A DNA stretch of 35,022 bases from an uncultured Eubacterium sp. (lineage in GTDB: Bacteria; Bacillota; Clostridia; Peptostreptococcales; Anaerovoracaceae): NCBI GenBank assembly GCA_946555345.1, contig CAMNSS010000024.1, forward strand, positions 1 to 35,022. The letters are read 5' to 3'. The position numbers were made by a program, and so were the translations under genes. Shown piece by piece: positions 21,550 to 28,830 of this stretch. A model generated the notes under the pieces. That model was not told where the DNA came from and ran no database searches. It worked only from the letters and a program-made list of their open reading frames with translations. Each line of letters opens with the position of its first letter. The first letter of the stretch is position 1.

Positions 21550-22458
21550 TTACTCAGTAGCCGCGGTTTCCTCCCCGGTCTTTTCAGAATCCTTGCCAGA
21601 GCCCTTTGCCGCCGCATCCGGCGTTTTCCCCGCCGCATCATCAGCCGCCTTTTCTGCCGGAGCATCAGCTTCTTTCTCCGCCGCAGCGCCGATTGACAAG
21701 CACTTTTTCGGGCATTTGTCCACGCAAGCGCCGCACTTTACACAAAGTTCTTCGTCAACTTCCCAGAGTTTTTCCTTGCGGTCAACCTTGAGGGCGTCAA
21801 CAGGACATTCCTTTGCGCAAAGACCGCAGTATACGCATTCATCCTCGTTGCAGGAAAGCTTCTCGCTGCCAGCAGCATCCTCTGATGCGCCACCAACTGC
21901 ATCTCCTGCCGCATCACCCATGGACAAGCATTTCTTCGGACACTTTTCGACACAAGCGCCGCATTTTGCACAAAGCTCCTTGTCAACCTCCCAGCGTTTT
22001 TCTTTTCTGTCAACTTTCAGCGCATCGGCAGGACACACTTTCGCACAAAGGCCGCAGTATACGCATTCATCCTTGTTGCAAGCCAAATCACCGCCGCCTG
22101 CTGCGCCTTTCGATTCCTTCTCCGGAATCGTGTAAGTATCGACTACCTTTTCTGCCTGTGGCTCGGTATACTGCTTGTTCATCGCCAGGCACTTCTTCGG
22201 ACATGCCTGGACGCATTCCCCACACTGGATACACTGCATCCTATGTATGGTCCATGTACCTGGACCTCGGTCTACTTCAAGCGCATCCGCCGGGCATCTC
22301 TTGGCGCAAATTCCACAAGCGATACATTTGTCGATTTCAATGTCGATGCTTCCCCTGGTTCTTTCCTGCCATTCCCTCTCCACGGCCGGGTACATGAGAG
22401 TTGCCGGCTTTTTGAACATGCTCTTGAATAATACTTTCGCTATTCTAAAAGTTTTCAT
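21550..22458 (-). CDS. echF: Ech hydrogenase EchF-like polyferredoxin subunit with three 2[4Fe-4S] modules
   Basis: Residues 1-110 are a canonical EchF: a short amphipathic N-terminus (MKTFRIAKVLFKSMF) and two 4Fe-4S motifs (C45/48/51/55 and C76/79/82/86). Two further ferredoxin modules follow: C132/135/138/142 with C163/166/169/173, and C208/211/214/218 with C239/242/245/249. That makes motifs for six [4Fe-4S] clusters instead of two. Modules 2 and 3 match at 44 of 51 residues, a recent-looking duplication. Extra cysteines recur after each module (KKC at 90, 177, 253) and before modules 2 and 3 (C127, C203). Linkers and the roughly 50-residue tail are Ala/Gly/Asp/Lys-rich. I start at ATG 22456-22458 (302 residues); an in-frame GTG three codons earlier abuts the echE stop. 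EchF normally passes electrons from ferredoxin to the small subunit; the extra modules are unexplained. Confidence 0.93.
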   Translation of the reverse strand: MKTFRIAKVLFKSMFKKPATLMYPAVEREWQERTRGSIDIEIDKCIACGICAKRCPADALEVDRGPGTWTIHRMQCIQCGECVQACPKKCLAMNKQYTEPQAEKVVDTYTIPEKESKGAAGGGDLACNKDECVYCGLCAKVCPADALKVDRKEKRWEVDKELCAKCGACVEKCPKKCLSMGDAAGDAVGGASEDAAGSEKLSCNEDECVYCGLCAKECPVDALKVDRKEKLWEVDEELCVKCGACVDKCPKKCLSIGAAAEKEADAPAEKAADDAAGKTPDAAAKGSGKDSEKTGEETAATE

Positions 22459-22467
22459 CACTCTCAC

Positions 22468-23550
22468 CTACCTTTCCGTACAACTGATACAAGGGTCGAT
22501 CGTCAGGATCAGGATCGGCACATCCGCCAAATCACAGCCCTCCAGCGTTTTCACCAACGCAGGGATATTCATGTTGGTCGGCGTCCTGACACGCATCCTC
22601 TGCAAGAATTTCGAGTTTGCGCCCTTTGCATAATAGAACGCCTCGCCTCTTGGCTGTTCCATCCTCGTGATGTATTCCCCTTCTACGTTGCCCTTCACTG
22701 CGACGCTGACAGGACCATCAGGAATCTGGCTTACCGCCTTGGTGATCAGCTCGATGGACTGGAACACTTCCCCGATCCTTACCTTGCATCTCGCATAACA
22801 ATCGCCGCCCGTCTCGATCACCGGTTCAAAATCCAATTTGTCGTATACGCCATGGCTATTGGTCATTCTCATGTCCTGGAACACGCCAGAACCCCTCGCA
22901 ACGGGACCTACGGCACATAACGCTTCCGCATCCTCCTTCGTGAGTACACCAACGCCAACCATCCTGTTTTTCACGGAATCATCTTCCAGGAAAACATCCG
23001 TTAATTCCTTGATTTCAGGTTTGAGTTCTTTCAGTGTTTCTACGATTTCCTTCAAGGTATCGTTATCAATATCTTTATTGAGCCCGCCTACCTTGCATAT
23101 GGAAAAGATAACCCTGCCGCCTGTCGTTTTTTCCAGGATATCGAGAATCGTTTCCCGCAATCTCCAGCAATGGTTGAACAAGCTTTCAAATCCAAACGCA
23201 TCCGCCAAAAGCCCCAGCCAGAGAAGGTGGCTGTGAAGCCTCGACAACTCGTGCAGGATCGTTCGCAGGTATTCAGCCCTCTCAGGCACTTTGACATTCA
23301 TCGCGCCTTCGATGGACGCCGCTGCGCCCCAGCCGTGCCCAAAACTGCAAATACCGCAAATACGTTCTATTACATATACCATCTGGGTATAGTCCCTTTT
23401 TTCCACCAGCTTTTCCAGTCCTCTATGGATAAATCCGATAGATGGAATCGCTTCCACGACTGTTTCATCCTCAATCACCAGATCGAGATGAACAGGTTCC
23501 GGAAGTACCGGATGCTGCGGACCGAAAGGAATTATCGTTCTTTTCGCCAT
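22468..23550 (-). CDS. echE: Ech-type [NiFe] hydrogenase large subunit
   Basis: The 360-residue protein belongs to the group 4 membrane-bound [NiFe] hydrogenase large subunits, related to NuoD. Both nickel-binding motifs are intact: RICGIC (C65, C68) and DPCISC (C354, C357). That separates it from complex I NuoD, which has lost them. The protein ends three residues after the last cysteine (CTER), with no C-terminal peptide for a maturation protease to remove, as reported for some Ech/Coo enzymes. The ATG follows GGAAGG. The stop is 9 bp from the echF ATG. No hyp maturation genes are in the window. Confidence 0.95.
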   Translation of the reverse strand: MAKRTIIPFGPQHPVLPEPVHLDLVIEDETVVEAIPSIGFIHRGLEKLVEKRDYTQMVYVIERICGICSFGHGWGAAASIEGAMNVKVPERAEYLRTILHELSRLHSHLLWLGLLADAFGFESLFNHCWRLRETILDILEKTTGGRVIFSICKVGGLNKDIDNDTLKEIVETLKELKPEIKELTDVFLEDDSVKNRMVGVGVLTKEDAEALCAVGPVARGSGVFQDMRMTNSHGVYDKLDFEPVIETGGDCYARCKVRIGEVFQSIELITKAVSQIPDGPVSVAVKGNVEGEYITRMEQPRGEAFYYAKGANSKFLQRMRVRTPTNMNIPALVKTLEGCDLADVPILILTIDPCISCTER

Positions 23551-23568: not shown

Positions 23569-23928
23569 CTATTTCTTCGGACTCCATGGAGCAGGTTCGG
23601 AAACCTTGAAGAAGTTGCCCTGGTAATCTAATGCCATATGCACAAACTTCACACCGAACAGGTCGTGCATTTCGTTTTCATAGATAAATGCCGGCCAGTA
23701 ATCTCCGGTAATACTCTCAACTTCCTCCTCCGGGGAAATAACCAATCTTAAATTCGTAAGCTGATGCGCCTTGTCAAATGAATAGATAATTTCGATCTTA
23801 TCACCAACGACCGTGGCGCACGCCTGTGCAAACCGATATCCATCAGACTTTAAATTTTTAACCTTTGTTAAAAGCTGGGAAACCTCAACAGGTGTAAAGT
23901 TCTGCTTCACATCTACTCTCTCACTCAT
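23569..23928 (-). CDS. echD: Ech hydrogenase subunit EchD (NuoC-like)
   Basis: This 119-residue soluble subunit is related to the 30-kDa NuoC subunit of complex I, seen in the C-terminal stretch HDLFGVKFVHMALDYQG and the PAPWSP ending. It supports the interface between the large and small subunits and carries no cofactor motif. An in-frame extension upstream lies inside echC. The ATG at 23926-23928 (MSERVDVKQNF) overlaps the echC stop by 8 bases and has a GGAGGG-type site, so translational coupling is likely. Confidence 0.9.
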   Translation of the reverse strand: MSERVDVKQNFTPVEVSQLLTKVKNLKSDGYRFAQACATVVGDKIEIIYSFDKAHQLTNLRLVISPEEEVESITGDYWPAFIYENEMHDLFGVKFVHMALDYQGNFFKVSEPAPWSPKK

Positions 23929-24505
23929 CTGTTTTCCCTCCTTCTTCTGTTTTTTCAGCCTGATCAGCCTCTGCCTTCTCATCCAGGGCCTCCGGCTTTG
24001 CTTCAGGAGCTTCGGATTCGGCCTTCTCTTCAGCCGCTTCCGCCTTTTCCGCAGGAGCCTCCGCCGGAGCGTCAACTCCCTTGACCATCTTGTCCCGCTT
24101 TTCCTGGAGAACTGCAAGGCCCTTTACAACGCCATCGATGATGGCCTCCGGCCTTGCGGCGCAGCCCGGAACATAAACATCTACAGGAATGACCGTATCC
24201 ACGCCGCCCATGATATTGTAGCACTGCTTGAATACGCCTCCTGAACATGCACAGATTCCCACGGCAACGACAACCTTCGGTTCAGGCATTTGTTCATAAA
24301 TCTGCTTTACGACATCTTTATTCTGTTCATTCACAGAACCCGTAACCAAAAATACGTCGGCATGTTTCGGGTTTCCTGTATTGATGATGCCAAACCGTTC
24401 CACATCGTACATCGGTGTAAGGCATGCCAGGACTTCAATATCGCACCCGTTACAGCTCGATCCGTCATAATGAATGACCCATGGTGATTTCGCTATATAT
24501 GACAT
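23921..24505 (-). CDS. echC: Ech hydrogenase small subunit EchC with acidic C-terminal tail
   Basis: The first 143 residues are a NuoB-like small subunit that holds the proximal [4Fe-4S] cluster: SCNGCD (C18, C21), GICACSGG (C85) and VPGCAARPE (C115). Residues 144-194 are a low-complexity tail almost entirely of Ala, Glu, Lys, Pro and Asp (EAPAEKAEAAEEKAESEAPE and onward), about 50 residues beyond the normal end of the family. The tail is encoded just before and into the echD start. The ATG follows GGAGGTGTAGAA. Core assignment is secure; the tail has no known role. Confidence 0.94.
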   Translation of the reverse strand: MSYIAKSPWVIHYDGSSCNGCDIEVLACLTPMYDVERFGIINTGNPKHADVFLVTGSVNEQNKDVVKQIYEQMPEPKVVVAVGICACSGGVFKQCYNIMGGVDTVIPVDVYVPGCAARPEAIIDGVVKGLAVLQEKRDKMVKGVDAPAEAPAEKAEAAEEKAESEAPEAKPEALDEKAEADQAEKTEEGGKTDE

Positions 24506-24517
24506 TTCTACACCTCC

Positions 24518-25387
24518 TTATACGATCAGATAAAGCACGAATATATTGATAACGCCAAAAACGAGGGAAACGATCCAGGCTGCTTTAAATGCAAACTGCC
24601 ATTTCATTCTCGCAAAACTGTTATCAATCAGCACTTCAAAGAAATAAGTTACAATACATACGATCACGCCAACCACAGCGCCCCATACAGTTCCGTTGGC
24701 AAAGAACAGGAACACGAAGCCCAGCAACATTACGTTTTCATACCAGTGGGAGATTTCAACCAGTCCCAGCGTCTTGCCGGAAAACTCAGTCGTCAGGCCC
24801 TTTACCAGCTCCTGGTGCGCATGATGGGACATGCTCAAATCAAACGGCGATTTTCTGAATTTTATCGTTAATATGAACACAAATCCGATAAATATACCGA
24901 TCAGCGGCAAAAATGGCATGGAAACGCCTGCGATGATGTCCCTTGCTGCAAAGCTGCCGCAGTACATATAGAATCCGATTGCGGTCATCAGTACCATCGG
25001 CTCATAAGCCATCATCTGCAAAAGTTCACGCTCTGCGCCGACCTGCGCATAAGGTGAATTCGATGAATACGCCGCCACGATGAGGAATGCGCTTGCCACG
25101 GTAAGCACGAAGATTACCAGCAGCAGGTCTCCACCCGCAAAGAAGATCACGCCGGATGCAATGACGAAGATCACGAAGATCATCACGTAAAAGTCTTGCA
25201 CCCTCGTTACGGTCTGAGCTTCCTTTTCAAAGAGCTTAAGTACATCGTAGAACGGCTGCAAAACGGGAGGACCTACCCTTCCCTGCATCCTTGCGGAAAG
25301 CTTCCTGTCCAAACCTGCCAAAAAGCCTCCAACCAGAGGCGCTAAAATCAGGTATGCAATTATGGATATCAACATTTTAATTATCAT
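24518..25387 (-). CDS. echB: Ech hydrogenase membrane subunit EchB (NuoH-like)
   Basis: The 289-residue polytopic membrane protein matches the NuoH/EchB family, including the cytoplasmic stretch RMQGRVGPPVLQPFYDVLKL that faces the quinone/hydrogenase interface in complex I-like enzymes. About eight hydrophobic helices are visible. It connects the peripheral arm to the ion-translocating arm. Its ATG overlaps the echA stop by one base (TAATG), with GGGAGG upstream, implying coupled translation. Confidence 0.94.
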   Translation of the reverse strand: MIIKMLISIIAYLILAPLVGGFLAGLDRKLSARMQGRVGPPVLQPFYDVLKLFEKEAQTVTRVQDFYVMIFVIFVIASGVIFFAGGDLLLVIFVLTVASAFLIVAAYSSNSPYAQVGAERELLQMMAYEPMVLMTAIGFYMYCGSFAARDIIAGVSMPFLPLIGIFIGFVFILTIKFRKSPFDLSMSHHAHQELVKGLTTEFSGKTLGLVEISHWYENVMLLGFVFLFFANGTVWGAVVGVIVCIVTYFFEVLIDNSFARMKWQFAFKAAWIVSLVFGVINIFVLYLIV

Positions 25388-27315
25388 TATGCAACACCTC
25401 CCAACAGGCTGACGAGCGTTCCTACCATGAACCCGATTCCGATTACGATCATCGCCGTGGCAATGATGCCGCCGATGAGGTTCATCTTCTTCTCGCCGAA
25501 GTAGCTCTCCATGTGCCAGTTTCTCAGTTTAAACTCCACATCCTTGCCCATCGAGCCCTGATAAGTCAGGTTGTCGCCCTTATTCGCTCCAGCCAAATAA
25601 ATCGGAACGATTTTTTTGTTTGTCTTGCCGAAGAACAAACCTGTAAGCAGTACCAATACTGCGATCATAACGACCATGATAATCATGTTGTCCGCTGAAA
25701 GCACCATCGCCGACAAGCCGCCGAATACGATTTCCAGGTACGGAACTAACATATACATGGAAATCAGCGGGAACATGAGGCAAACGAGGATGGTAAGCGC
25801 CACCAGCGTCGCATGCACGAAGGTTTCTTCCTTATGGACGTTCTGGTCAATCCGCTCTTCACCCGCAACGATGCCTGCGAGCTTGCCCATCCATTTGATC
25901 CAGTAAAATGCTGTTACCGCACTGCCGAAGCAGATGATTGCAACCAGTATCACATTACCGGAATCAACGAATGCAGTCATTGCCGCCCATTTGGAAATCA
26001 GCATTCCAAAAGGTGCGAGGAGCATTCCTGCAATACCGATGATCATGAAGCCTGCCAGCTTTGGCATTCTCACAAACAGGCCGTCCATGTCTTCGATATC
26101 CCTGCTGCCGATATTGTGTTCAGCAGTACCCACGCACAGGAACAGAAGTGACTTCGTTACTGCATGGAAAATGATCAGCATCACGCCTGCCCATACAGCT
26201 TCCGGCGTCCCAATGCCGCCGCAGGCTACGATCAGCCCCAAGTTAGCAATGGTCGAATAAGCCAGCACCCGCTTGGCATTGCTCTGTGATATCGCAGCAA
26301 AAGACGCCATCAGGAACGTAATGCCGCCAACCATGATGGTCATGATTCCGGCGAAATTGCTCATCCCCAGCACAGGCGCTAACTTGATAATCATAAATAC
26401 GCCGGCTTTTACCATTGTAGATGAATGGAGCAGGGCCGATGTCGGCGTCGGCGCTACCATCGCACCCAAAAGCCAGCTGTTAAACGGCATCTGTGCAGCC
26501 TTGGTAATTCCTGCGAATGCAAAGAATACGGCAGGAATCGCCATCAGCTCGCCGTATACGGAACCAAACGTGATCATCTCGCTCAGCTCCAGCGTACCGA
26601 ACGCCTTGCCAAGAATAACGATTCCAATCGCGAAACCCAGTCCGCCCAGCAGGTTCATGATCAGCGCCCGGAATGCATTGTTCGTCGCTTCTTCCGTCTT
26701 GGTAAATCCGATCAGCCAGAATGATGACAGGCTGGTGATTTCCCAGAAGAAATACATCCAGATCATGTTATTCGATGTTACGAGGCCCACCATAGCGCCC
26801 AGGAATATGAACATAACAAAGAAGAACCAAGGCCTTCTGTCAGGCTGGTCATCATGATGATGCTGGAAATCTTTCATATATCCCAATGCATAAACCGTTA
26901 TCAAAGATCCAATAATACCTATGATCAATATCATAATCACGGAAAGTCTGTCCACGTACATATTGTTCTTGATAGCAATGTGATGCCCGTTAGTAAGCTC
27001 GAACCAGATCAAAAGCGGCGTCTGGATCAATGCGAAAAGGGATGCCAGGTATTTCCTGTGCTTGATGCCCATGCAGATGATATAGATCGCAAGCAACGCT
27101 TCTATCACCATCATGACATAATTCACAACCTCAATGTGGACAGGGAAACTCTCCCCGCCCGGCTTGAAATACTGGACGGCCACGGCGATGGAAACAGCGG
27201 CGATCGCCAGTGCGGCAATCTTCACGATCACATCCCGGACCTTATCCGATTTGCTTACTAAAAGAATCAAGGCAATCAGTATTGGGAAAAAGATCAGAAA
27301 TAGTATAGTGCCCAT
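25387..27315 (-). CDS. echA: Ech hydrogenase membrane subunit EchA (NuoL/MrpA-like antiporter)
   Basis: The 642-residue membrane protein is the antiporter-like subunit that moves H+ or Na+ through the membrane. Charged residues typical of the channel are visible in the helices: Glu in FFWEITSLSSFW, Lys in GITKAAQMPFNSW, and the HSSTMVKAGVF segment. It is the first gene of echABCDEF, with an AGGAGG site and its own promoter. The whole operon should couple oxidation of reduced ferredoxin to proton reduction and ion pumping, or the reverse. Confidence 0.95.
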   Translation of the reverse strand: MGTILFLIFFPILIALILLVSKSDKVRDVIVKIAALAIAAVSIAVAVQYFKPGGESFPVHIEVVNYVMMVIEALLAIYIICMGIKHRKYLASLFALIQTPLLIWFELTNGHHIAIKNNMYVDRLSVIMILIIGIIGSLITVYALGYMKDFQHHHDDQPDRRPWFFFVMFIFLGAMVGLVTSNNMIWMYFFWEITSLSSFWLIGFTKTEEATNNAFRALIMNLLGGLGFAIGIVILGKAFGTLELSEMITFGSVYGELMAIPAVFFAFAGITKAAQMPFNSWLLGAMVAPTPTSALLHSSTMVKAGVFMIIKLAPVLGMSNFAGIMTIMVGGITFLMASFAAISQSNAKRVLAYSTIANLGLIVACGGIGTPEAVWAGVMLIIFHAVTKSLLFLCVGTAEHNIGSRDIEDMDGLFVRMPKLAGFMIIGIAGMLLAPFGMLISKWAAMTAFVDSGNVILVAIICFGSAVTAFYWIKWMGKLAGIVAGEERIDQNVHKEETFVHATLVALTILVCLMFPLISMYMLVPYLEIVFGGLSAMVLSADNMIIMVVMIAVLVLLTGLFFGKTNKKIVPIYLAGANKGDNLTYQGSMGKDVEFKLRNWHMESYFGEKKMNLIGGIIATAMIVIGIGFMVGTLVSLLGGVA

Positions 27316-27525: not shown

Positions 27526-28830
27526 TTGGAAAAAGTTTATGACATCATCATCATCGGCGGCGGCACGGCAGGAATGACTGCCGCCATATACGGATGCCGA
27601 TTGGGGAAACGAATCCTCATCATCGAAAAAAAATTTTTTGGCGGCCAGATCATATCCACGCCTGAAATAGAAAACTATCCTGCGTTTCCTTCTGCCAACG
27701 GATACACGTTCGCCACCGGGCTGCATTCACAAATCGAGGCGTTAAACGCAGAACAGGTTTCCGATGAAGTGACCGGGCTAAAACGGGTGGCTGCATCCAG
27801 CGAAATGGCAGACGCAGCACAGGCGAACGCATCCAGCGAGATGATAGGCGCAACGCATGCGGACGCCTCCGGTGGAATGGCAAATCCGGAACAGGCGGAC
27901 ACCGCCGATGATATCAAAAGCGCAAAACAAACAAACGCTTCCGGTTTCTGGCGTATCATATGTAAAAAAAGCCTTTATTCCGCACGGACAGTCATCATCG
28001 CTTCCGGCACGGAAAGCCGCAAATTGGGACTTGCAGGAGAAGATAAGCTCCTGGGCCATGGTATCTCCCATTGCGCTACATGTGACGGCGCGCTTTACAA
28101 AAATCGTACCGTAGCTGTCGTTGGCGGCGGCAATACTGCCCTGGAAGAAGCGCTTTACCTGTCGCTGCTGTGCAGAAAAGTCTACCTGATTCACCGAAGA
28201 TCCGTCTTTACCGGGGATTTGTCCCTGCAACAACGCATCTACAATACCGATAATGTGCAGCTATTGCTGAACAGCCGAATCGTTGCACTGAACGGAAAAG
28301 ACAGGCTGCAATCGGTCGAACTATGCGCCTGCGGACAAAACAGCGCTGCAGACACAAGCAGCGGCACAAACGGAAATGCAAAACGCAATGATTCCGTCAA
28401 TGCGGACACCGCCAACAGCAACATAAGCGGCAATAAACGCAGCGAAACGAACGGCCACGCCGCAAACAATAATGCAAAACGCAATGATCCGATACGGGCG
28501 GGCGTTTTCAACAGCAACGCAAGCGGCAACCGCCCGCTTTCCGAAAACACCACCAGCGGCGTGTCCGAAAATATGGACGGCGGTTCTGCTGAAACGCTGC
28601 AAATAGACGCCCTTTTTGTCGCCATCGGCCAGATTCCACAAAATCAGCCTTTTGCCGGTACCGTCGCCCTTGACCCCCACGGCTACATCATCGCTGGCGA
28701 AGACTGCCATACCGATGCATCCGGCGTGTTCGCCGCTGGCGACTGCCGCACGAAAGATCTCCGGCAGCTCGTCACCGCTGCATCAGACGGAGCTATCGCT
28801 GCAACGGAAGCCATAAAGTATTTGAGATGA
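27526..28830 (+). CDS. Thioredoxin-reductase-like flavoprotein with two low-complexity insertions
   Basis: The catalytic framework is complete: FAD-binding GGGTAG (residues 11-16), redox pair CATC (183-186), NADPH-binding GGGNTA (200-205) with HRR (223-225), and the C-terminal FAD motif GVFAAGDCRT. It is 434 residues against about 305-315 for usual TrxB. The excess is two insertions. Residues 90-137 are four 12-residue repeats (ASSEMADAAQAN type), encoded by 36-bp units. Residues about 268-356 are Asn/Ser/Gly/Lys-rich with an internal duplication. Both fall at positions equivalent to hairpin loops in TrxB, so the fold may tolerate them. The start is TTG at 27526, with GGAGG 7-8 bases upstream. 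It is divergent from the ech operon. It probably transfers electrons from NADPH to a thioredoxin-like partner, which is not in the window. Confidence 0.88.
   Translation: MEKVYDIIIIGGGTAGMTAAIYGCRLGKRILIIEKKFFGGQIISTPEIENYPAFPSANGYTFATGLHSQIEALNAEQVSDEVTGLKRVAASSEMADAAQANASSEMIGATHADASGGMANPEQADTADDIKSAKQTNASGFWRIICKKSLYSARTVIIASGTESRKLGLAGEDKLLGHGISHCATCDGALYKNRTVAVVGGGNTALEEALYLSLLCRKVYLIHRRSVFTGDLSLQQRIYNTDNVQLLLNSRIVALNGKDRLQSVELCACGQNSAADTSSGTNGNAKRNDSVNADTANSNISGNKRSETNGHAANNNAKRNDPIRAGVFNSNASGNRPLSENTTSGVSENMDGGSAETLQIDALFVAIGQIPQNQPFAGTVALDPHGYIIAGEDCHTDASGVFAAGDCRTKDLRQLVTAASDGAIAATEAIKYLR
27793..27936 (+). repeat. In-frame array of four degenerate 36-bp repeats
   Basis: Units at 27793-27828, 27829-27864, 27865-27900 and 27901-27936 keep the reading frame; the first two share GCATCCAGCGA and differ mainly in their second half, while the fourth is the most diverged. 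Each encodes 12 residues of the trxB-like protein. Confidence 0.85.
28375..28488 (+). repeat. In-frame duplication in the second insertion of the trxB-like gene
   Basis: AATGCAAAACGCAATGAT is present exactly at 28375-28392 and 28471-28488, 96 bp (32 codons) apart, followed in both copies by a diverged AACAGCAAC-AAGCGGCAA segment. Confidence 0.75.

Follow-up and report, generated by a model that had tools for sequence, protein, structure and literature searches.

An Ech hydrogenase with three ferredoxin-type modules in EchF, and the changing module number among its relatives

EchF, the electron-input subunit of the Ech hydrogenase of a gut bacterium, here carries three ferredoxin-type modules, and related EchF proteins carry between one and five. 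We put at about 0.5 the probability that EchF grew into a flexible electron-input arm, the added modules probably being copies of its own ferredoxin module. Within the searched data, multi-module EchF is confined to one bacterial family and one apparently separate case.

Few relatives of respiratory complex I are as simple as the Ech hydrogenases, which are also important for H2 in the gut and the rumen; the EchF of M. barkeri has two clusters. For T. kivui, an EchF-like subunit with two 4Fe-4S clusters has been described (PMC4320612), and purified T. kivui Ech2 is reported to contain 34.2 +/- 12.2 Fe per complex, oxidise reduced ferredoxin, make H2 and pump ions (PMC9356269). The protein analysed here shares with characterised EchF and with MbhN/NuoI-type subunits the same core module A, the operon and the electron-entry place in a group 4 [NiFe] hydrogenase, but has two further modules, and its relatives have up to four. 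A polyferredoxin beside an energy-converting hydrogenase is a known idea, because the methanogen Eha and Ehb operons are reported to encode separate polyferredoxins with 6, 10 and 14 clusters (PMC3087415). In the open-licence PMC literature we found no multi-module EchF, nor any bacterial series in which such modules are fused to EchF in graded number.

The echF gene and its operon

The window, that is, the whole stretch of DNA that was analysed (35,022 nucleotides), holds a complete echABCDEF operon, with EchA to EchF homologues in order from 27315 to 21550 and echF last. Its features are as follows.

25387..27315, minus strand: echA, NuoL/Mrp antiporter-like membrane subunit (family matches)
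24518..25387, minus strand: echB, NuoH-like membrane subunit (family matches)
23921..24505, minus strand: echC, NuoB-like small subunit with a Cys-free Ala/Glu/Lys tail (family matches)
23569..23928, minus strand: echD, NuoC-like; likely ATG start at 23928 inside a longer ORF, picked by inspection
22468..23550, minus strand: echE, [NiFe]-hydrogenase large-subunit homologue with CGIC and DPCISC (family matches)
21550..22458, minus strand: echF, 302 aa, modules A-B-B (each of 2x[4Fe-4S] type) followed by 45 low-complexity residues
22351..22458, minus strand: EchF N-terminal segment, a short helix at residues 4-15 (model, low to moderate confidence) and KPATLMYP...ERTRG
22171..22350, minus strand: module A, the EchF core common to single-module EchF, resembling NuoI- and MbhN-type sequences
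22087..22170, minus strand: linker 1, whose first part, YTEPQAEKVVD, is conserved EchF core; pLDDT below 50 at residues 117-121
21916..22086, minus strand: module B1, first added ferredoxin module (sequence comparison and model)
21859..21915, minus strand: linker 2, Ala/Gly/Asp-rich, predicted disordered; pLDDT below 50 at residues 184-196
21688..21858, minus strand: module B2, second added ferredoxin module (sequence comparison and model)
21553..21687, minus strand: Ala/Lys/Glu/Asp-rich C-terminal tail, predicted disordered (model)

The six genes (two for membrane and four for soluble, complex I-like subunits) are those of an Ech-type enzyme. Ni-binding CxxC motifs at both ends of the large subunit are the rule for Ech-type [NiFe] hydrogenases, and EchE has them intact at its N terminus (CGIC) and C terminus (DPCISC). 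The sequence-only reading was thus right to call this an Ech hydrogenase operon, and its term 'polyferredoxin-type Ech' is a fair name as far as sequence goes. The ATG at 22458 gives EchF its 302 aa, and an alternative GTG start lies at 22467. Both cluster motifs of the EchF core are present, together with its conserved flanks; module A, aligned with 25 other EchF cores (26 rows), shows 19 invariant columns. The usual two-cluster limit is exceeded, with six motifs in the window and two to ten in relatives; because the rest of the subunit fits, we regard the protein as a variant EchF, not a standard one.

Six complete CxxCxxCxxxCP motifs start at residues 45, 76, 132, 163, 208 and 239 and form three pairs, that is, three ferredoxin-type modules, and Pfam Fer4 matches six stretches, in line with the earlier count of modules and motifs. 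Among 20,000 shuffled versions of the protein, none reached two such motifs. Within modules two and three, the stretches 22080-21928 and 21852-21700 agree in 44 of 51 residues, an earlier figure that was reproduced on recomputation, and in 123 of 153 DNA positions. The C-terminal tail is reduced to two residues in the close relatives L009 and L010.

That a two-cluster EchF and a separate ferredoxin gene were merged by an assembly or frame error is vanishingly improbable. Although MAGs or uncultured bins are the source of 40 of 44 titled loci, three modules recur in separately assembled species (L009 and L010, both with 91% EchE identity to the window) and in an isolate-type record, Anaerovorax odorimutans SL.3.17 (L052, not a MAG); the other four titled loci include L052 and A. 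odorimutans DSM 5092 (L027), which has one module. No stop or shift lies between the modules of the window, and its repeats differ at 30 of 153 DNA positions. Assembly error, which the sequence-only reading had named as a danger to its own claim, is excluded by the separate assemblies and the isolate-type record; the two-cluster EchF in other strains that it had also named does exist among relatives, but in none of the 28 readable members of the window's own clade. In three-module L019, L039 and L040, which have kin with four modules, a search of three frames and 600 bases around and after the stop (with two N near the L039 gene) found no further motif beyond those of EchF itself.

By inspection, apparent secE, nusG and ribosomal protein genes follow the operon directly (21182-17707), and secE/nusG-like frames also stand directly after ech in L009, L010, L019, L022, L039 and L040. 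On the other side lies a thioredoxin reductase-like ORF (27526-28830, by inspection) with long internal Ala/Asn/Ser-rich stretches. The Ala/Glu/Lys-rich, Cys-free tail of EchC (about 50 residues, 23921-24070) varies in length among relatives; no clear rule ties its length to module number, and it is also long in single-module L115 and L119.

Module number among relatives and the history of the added modules

A pattern-based scan for EchE in one genome per species (84,980 species), which reaches close relatives only, gave 44 loci, and EchE was matched in 99 of 296 family genomes (E <= 1e-60) and 35 of 391 class genomes (E <= 1e-110). An EchF frame was sought after EchE in 172 loci, 144 of them distinct; nine distinct loci without an EchF frame (contig ends, or distant hydrogenases of about 40% identity) and six further loci with EchE below 55% identity were left out, giving a set of 129 EchF. 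Module number in this set runs from one to five, with 66 single-module proteins (three cut by contig ends) and 63 multi-module ones. The architectures are A (66), AB (31), ABB (9), ABC (7), ABBC (14) and ABBBC (2), frames cut by contig ends being taken as read (L017, L042 and L045 as A, L015 as AB) and a long loop in the second module of L131, L134, L144 and L145 being counted within two modules. The two proteins with five modules, L011 and L012, have ten cluster motifs.

The sequence-only reading had proposed counting modules in homologues and mapping them on a tree. On an EchE tree of 126 rows (three short EchE excluded; quick method, SH-aLRT, 36 of 121 inner branches below 80), one module is found in 62 rows, two in 29, three in 15, four in 14 and five in 2, with 4 unknown because of cut frames, and parsimony needs at least 20 changes of module number, against a mean of 54.3 with shuffled labels. 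The window and 29 others share one branch (SH-aLRT 99), and all 28 members with a known count, some of them close kin, have three to five modules; a species near the window is Candidatus Allocopromorpha excrementigallinarum (L014). This variation from one to five, together with the acidic terminal modules of some relatives, is a wider pattern than the single case first observed.

Outside the family, EchE was found in 33 genomes of other families of the class; of the 28 fetched, 27 have a single-module EchF and one (L123) has three modules. The added modules of L123 sit beside A modules in a module tree of few columns, which suggests a separate origin. At the level of the phylum, the EchF core was matched in 59 of 398 genomes (E <= 1e-20); leaving aside the window's own frame of 305 aa, every one of the 60 matches (58 genomes) is in a frame of 106-170 aa, which corresponds to a single module.

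Several relatives show further variation at the ends of EchF. A hydrophobic stretch precedes the usual start in L018-L020, L022, L025, L029, L031-L037, L039, L040, L043 and L061 (by eye, with unsure start codons), and in this subclade it is perhaps a membrane anchor. The EchF of L058 (2597-3787) and L075 have an additional C-terminal region past the last module; in L058 the Pfam matches are confined to Fer4-type families.

Between B1 and B2 of the window we counted 24 synonymous differences in 31.5 sites, which is near saturation, and 10 differences in 130.5 nonsynonymous sites. The near-saturated synonymous sites and the DNA differences speak against a recent or artefactual copy, and the pair reads as an old duplication kept under constraint. 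Inside one protein B1 and B2 share on average 81.5% identity (24 proteins with at least two B modules, L123 left out), B1 shares 81.4% across species, B2 71.1%, and B1 shares 73.2% with the B2 of other species; for L141, whose third module has a longer spacing, the gap-free comparison makes the identities too low. These values point to partly lineage-specific duplication or exchange of B modules.

None of the 113 extra modules in the 63 multi-module EchF of the 129 has a broken motif, even by a loose search with one Cys replaced. For close species pairs the added modules gave dN/dS of 0.01-0.17 (where computable and non-zero) and module A of the same pairs values up to 0.07, several pairwise comparisons, including all with the window, being saturated; since the upper values differ in this way, constraint on the added modules may be a little weaker than on the core. 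The intact motifs and the low dN/dS support selection to keep the modules; the sequence-only reading had taken the duplication as a sign of selection for more clusters. They also weigh against the idea that slippage or unequal exchange adds and removes modules whose clusters are tolerated but useless. The number changes on the EchE tree, the module pairs that are most alike within one protein and the freely varying linkers all fit such an idea, yet the 28 readable members of the window's clade without exception keep at least three modules, and iron and sulfur can be reasoned to be costly; we consider it very unlikely. Module number looks like a property of a tunable electron-collecting arm, and because it shifts often, even between three and four among close kin, its precise value may be of little consequence.

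Two kinds of added module and their possible donors

Modules were classed by position and by the spacing between their two motifs, without use of charge: in B modules this spacing is that of the EchF core, and in C modules, which are last and stand third or later, it is the 19-20 found in free ferredoxin. The rule is imperfect, as the third module of L058 is classed as C but fell outside the C clade in a first module tree. Net charge without cofactors averages +1.2 in A modules (-3 to 5, n=129), +0.4 in B modules (-4 to 4, n=90) and -8.9 in C modules (-11 to -5, n=23), with no overlap between B and C, and is -7 in the free ferredoxin of the window's own genome. Since B modules are near neutral and free ferredoxin is acidic, they fit the part of an acceptor or relay rather than that of a ferredoxin mimic. 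The window's A-B-B protein contains no C module. Compared with clostridial 2[4Fe-4S] ferredoxin, its modules have the same size and eight Cys, but the B modules differ in charge and in their EchF spacing; the C modules of relatives share both the spacing and the acidity.

The recurring extra cysteines of the earlier reading were upheld in part. The Cys of CNxDEC before a module genuinely sets B modules apart: 81 of 90 have it, compared with 1 of 129 cores and 2 of 23 C modules. A Cys within five residues after the last ligand (KKC) does not: it already occurs in 124 of 129 cores, including those of single-module EchF, and is invariant across the 26-row core alignment, while 41 of the 90 B modules and 2 of the 23 C modules have it.

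A tree of 77 rows and 56 columns was built from all 23 C modules, 29 of the 90 B modules, 14 of the 129 A modules, ten free ferredoxins of the genus and one RnfB piece. The C modules and the ten free ferredoxins lie on one side of a branch with SH-aLRT 98, a value from 56 columns in which shared acidity may pull rows together, and C modules have a mean identity of 39.8% with free ferredoxin and 38.5% with B modules. Recruitment of the C modules from a free ferredoxin is a fair guess, kept at that strength because of the few columns, the pull of acidity and the closeness of the two identities. Relatives with a terminal C module appear to carry a captive ferredoxin-like unit.

A small free ferredoxin gene was found in 41 of 49 genus genomes (E <= 1e-15, frames of 58-120 aa), and in one more (G698) it fell just past the threshold (1.1e-15). 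In seven genus genomes, among them multi-module G003 and G004 (89% and 91% complete), no such ferredoxin gene was found. Loss of free ferredoxin where EchF is long is therefore no rule, as 41 of the 49 keep the gene, and the arm would mostly work beside a diffusible donor.

It is rather unlikely that the modules form a direct docking arm, binding to and being reduced by PFOR or bifurcating complexes and so bypassing free ferredoxin, with the C module of C-tailed relatives as the captive ferredoxin that docks. Such docking would suit the acidity of the 23 C modules and their grouping with free ferredoxins, as well as the result for G003 and G004; in single-module L026 echF is followed by an apparent pyruvate:ferredoxin oxidoreductase gene (by inspection), and the fused ferredoxin-like domain of CarE is described as a proposed adaptor for its partner (PMC5861303). 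However, the window EchF has no such C module, no donor gene was recognised by inspection beside its ech genes, most genus genomes have a free ferredoxin, and C modules are hardly closer to it than to B modules. A bolder form of the idea, which we hold to be unlikely, is that this Ech family builds its own tethered ferredoxin chain, with relays copied from EchF and often a captive acidic ferredoxin at the end that docks on ferredoxin-reducing enzymes. If so, Ech could run with little need of diffusible ferredoxin, and evolution would set capture rate or reach by changing the number of modules.

Compensation for a missing Rnf complex by multi-module EchF was considered and dropped, as there was no significant association with lack of RnfC. 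In a family sample of 73 genomes, with the Rnf-positive list and the locus-to-genome table compiled by hand, 11 multi-module genomes had Rnf and 32 lacked it, and 13 single-module genomes had it and 17 lacked it (Fisher p 0.13; 0.15 at completeness >=85 and 0.29 at >=90; all uncorrected for kinship); seven genomes with weak RnfC (E 1e-60 to 1e-72), contig-cut loci, L171 and the second Ech of G075 were left out. At completeness >=85 the ABBC (6) and ABC (4) genomes, which are close kin and from each of which one weak-RnfC genome was dropped, were all without a strong RnfC match. RnfC at E <= 1e-60 is absent from the draft genomes of L018, L022, L023, L025, L031, L032, L061 and L089 (86-98% complete), so that Ech may be a main ion pump there.

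Predicted fold, likeness to RnfB and proposed working

An AlphaFold2 model of the window EchF (33-row alignment, a single chain without cofactors or partners) has a mean pLDDT of 76.6 and a pTM of 0.55 and consists of three ferredoxin-like units with block-mean pLDDT mostly 81-94. Values below 50 at residues 117-121 and 184-196, between the modules, agree with the flexible linkers proposed earlier, here as a prediction, and the tail is of low confidence at residues 259-279 and 281-299. The model of five-module L011, also a single chain, gives a similar picture at lower confidence (mean pLDDT 75.3, pTM 0.38).

In Foldseek the window model matched the FwdF polyferredoxin best, followed by RnfB and NuoI/FHL-type structures, with low whole-chain TM-scores; among PDB sequence matches MvhB was best, with FwdF and RnfB also on top. 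The RnfB model TIGR01944 scored 97.5 against a cut-off of 68.7, and other generic ferredoxin-type models, such as NuoI, EFR1 and PorD, were also above their own cut-offs, whereas the scores for methanogen polyferredoxins were far below the curated cut-offs (VhuB 79.4 against 600 bits, FwdF 105.6 against 375). EhaP, EhaQ, EhbK, MvhB and FwdF resemble the window protein in their tandem [4Fe-4S] units, and some are encoded in energy-converting hydrogenase operons (PMC3087415); they are separate archaeal proteins, whereas the window's modules belong to the same chain as the core input subunit, in an Ech of bacteria.

The closest functional parallel is RnfB. The number of fused ferredoxin modules in RnfB is reported to differ among species (PMC9588780), and its C-terminal domain is described as having two to seven clusters and taking electrons from ferredoxin (PMC12174285). 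Judged from these accounts, RnfB and the window EchF would both be ferredoxin-accepting subunits of a membrane ion pump with a variable number of fused modules and flexible parts, a likeness joined by the sequence and fold matches of the window EchF to solved RnfB. The complex is a different one, and by inspection the window EchF has no N-terminal membrane anchor, small single-cluster domain or rnf neighbours, and so is not itself an RnfB. By this analogy, the arm of the window EchF most likely works like RnfB's ferredoxin array.

On this proposal each module would hold two [4Fe-4S] clusters, and reduced soluble ferredoxin, possibly along with ferredoxin-reducing enzymes, would give electrons to any of the tethered modules. 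Electrons would move along the chain by transient contact to core module A, and from there through EchC to the [NiFe] site of EchE, which forms H2 while ions are pumped. The extra modules would let electrons enter at more points close to the membrane complex, would extend the reach and, being near neutral, could accept electrons from acidic ferredoxin for delivery to the core. The added clusters might instead serve as an electron store, four of them buffering electrons for the two-electron [NiFe] site. Four extra predicted one-electron sites by the enzyme, and the ten motifs of L011 and L012, would suit a store, but the few electrons held per complex can be reasoned to be small against the soluble ferredoxin pool, which most genus genomes retain, and we find this distinctly unlikely.

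If the input-arm reading is right, arms that grew in Ech as well as in Rnf would indicate that the two complexes share a solution. The natural series of one to five input modules on similar enzymes would allow the effect of tethered ferredoxins on electron delivery to be measured, a question common to RnfB and polyferredoxins.

The genome of the window also encodes, by inspection, an RnfB-type protein (in L002), an apparent bifurcating [FeFe] hydrogenase (in L008) and the free ferredoxin (in L004); RnfC lies about 3 kb from RnfB. A second RnfB-like frame of 432 aa in the same genome (L007:895-2193) has six cluster motifs.
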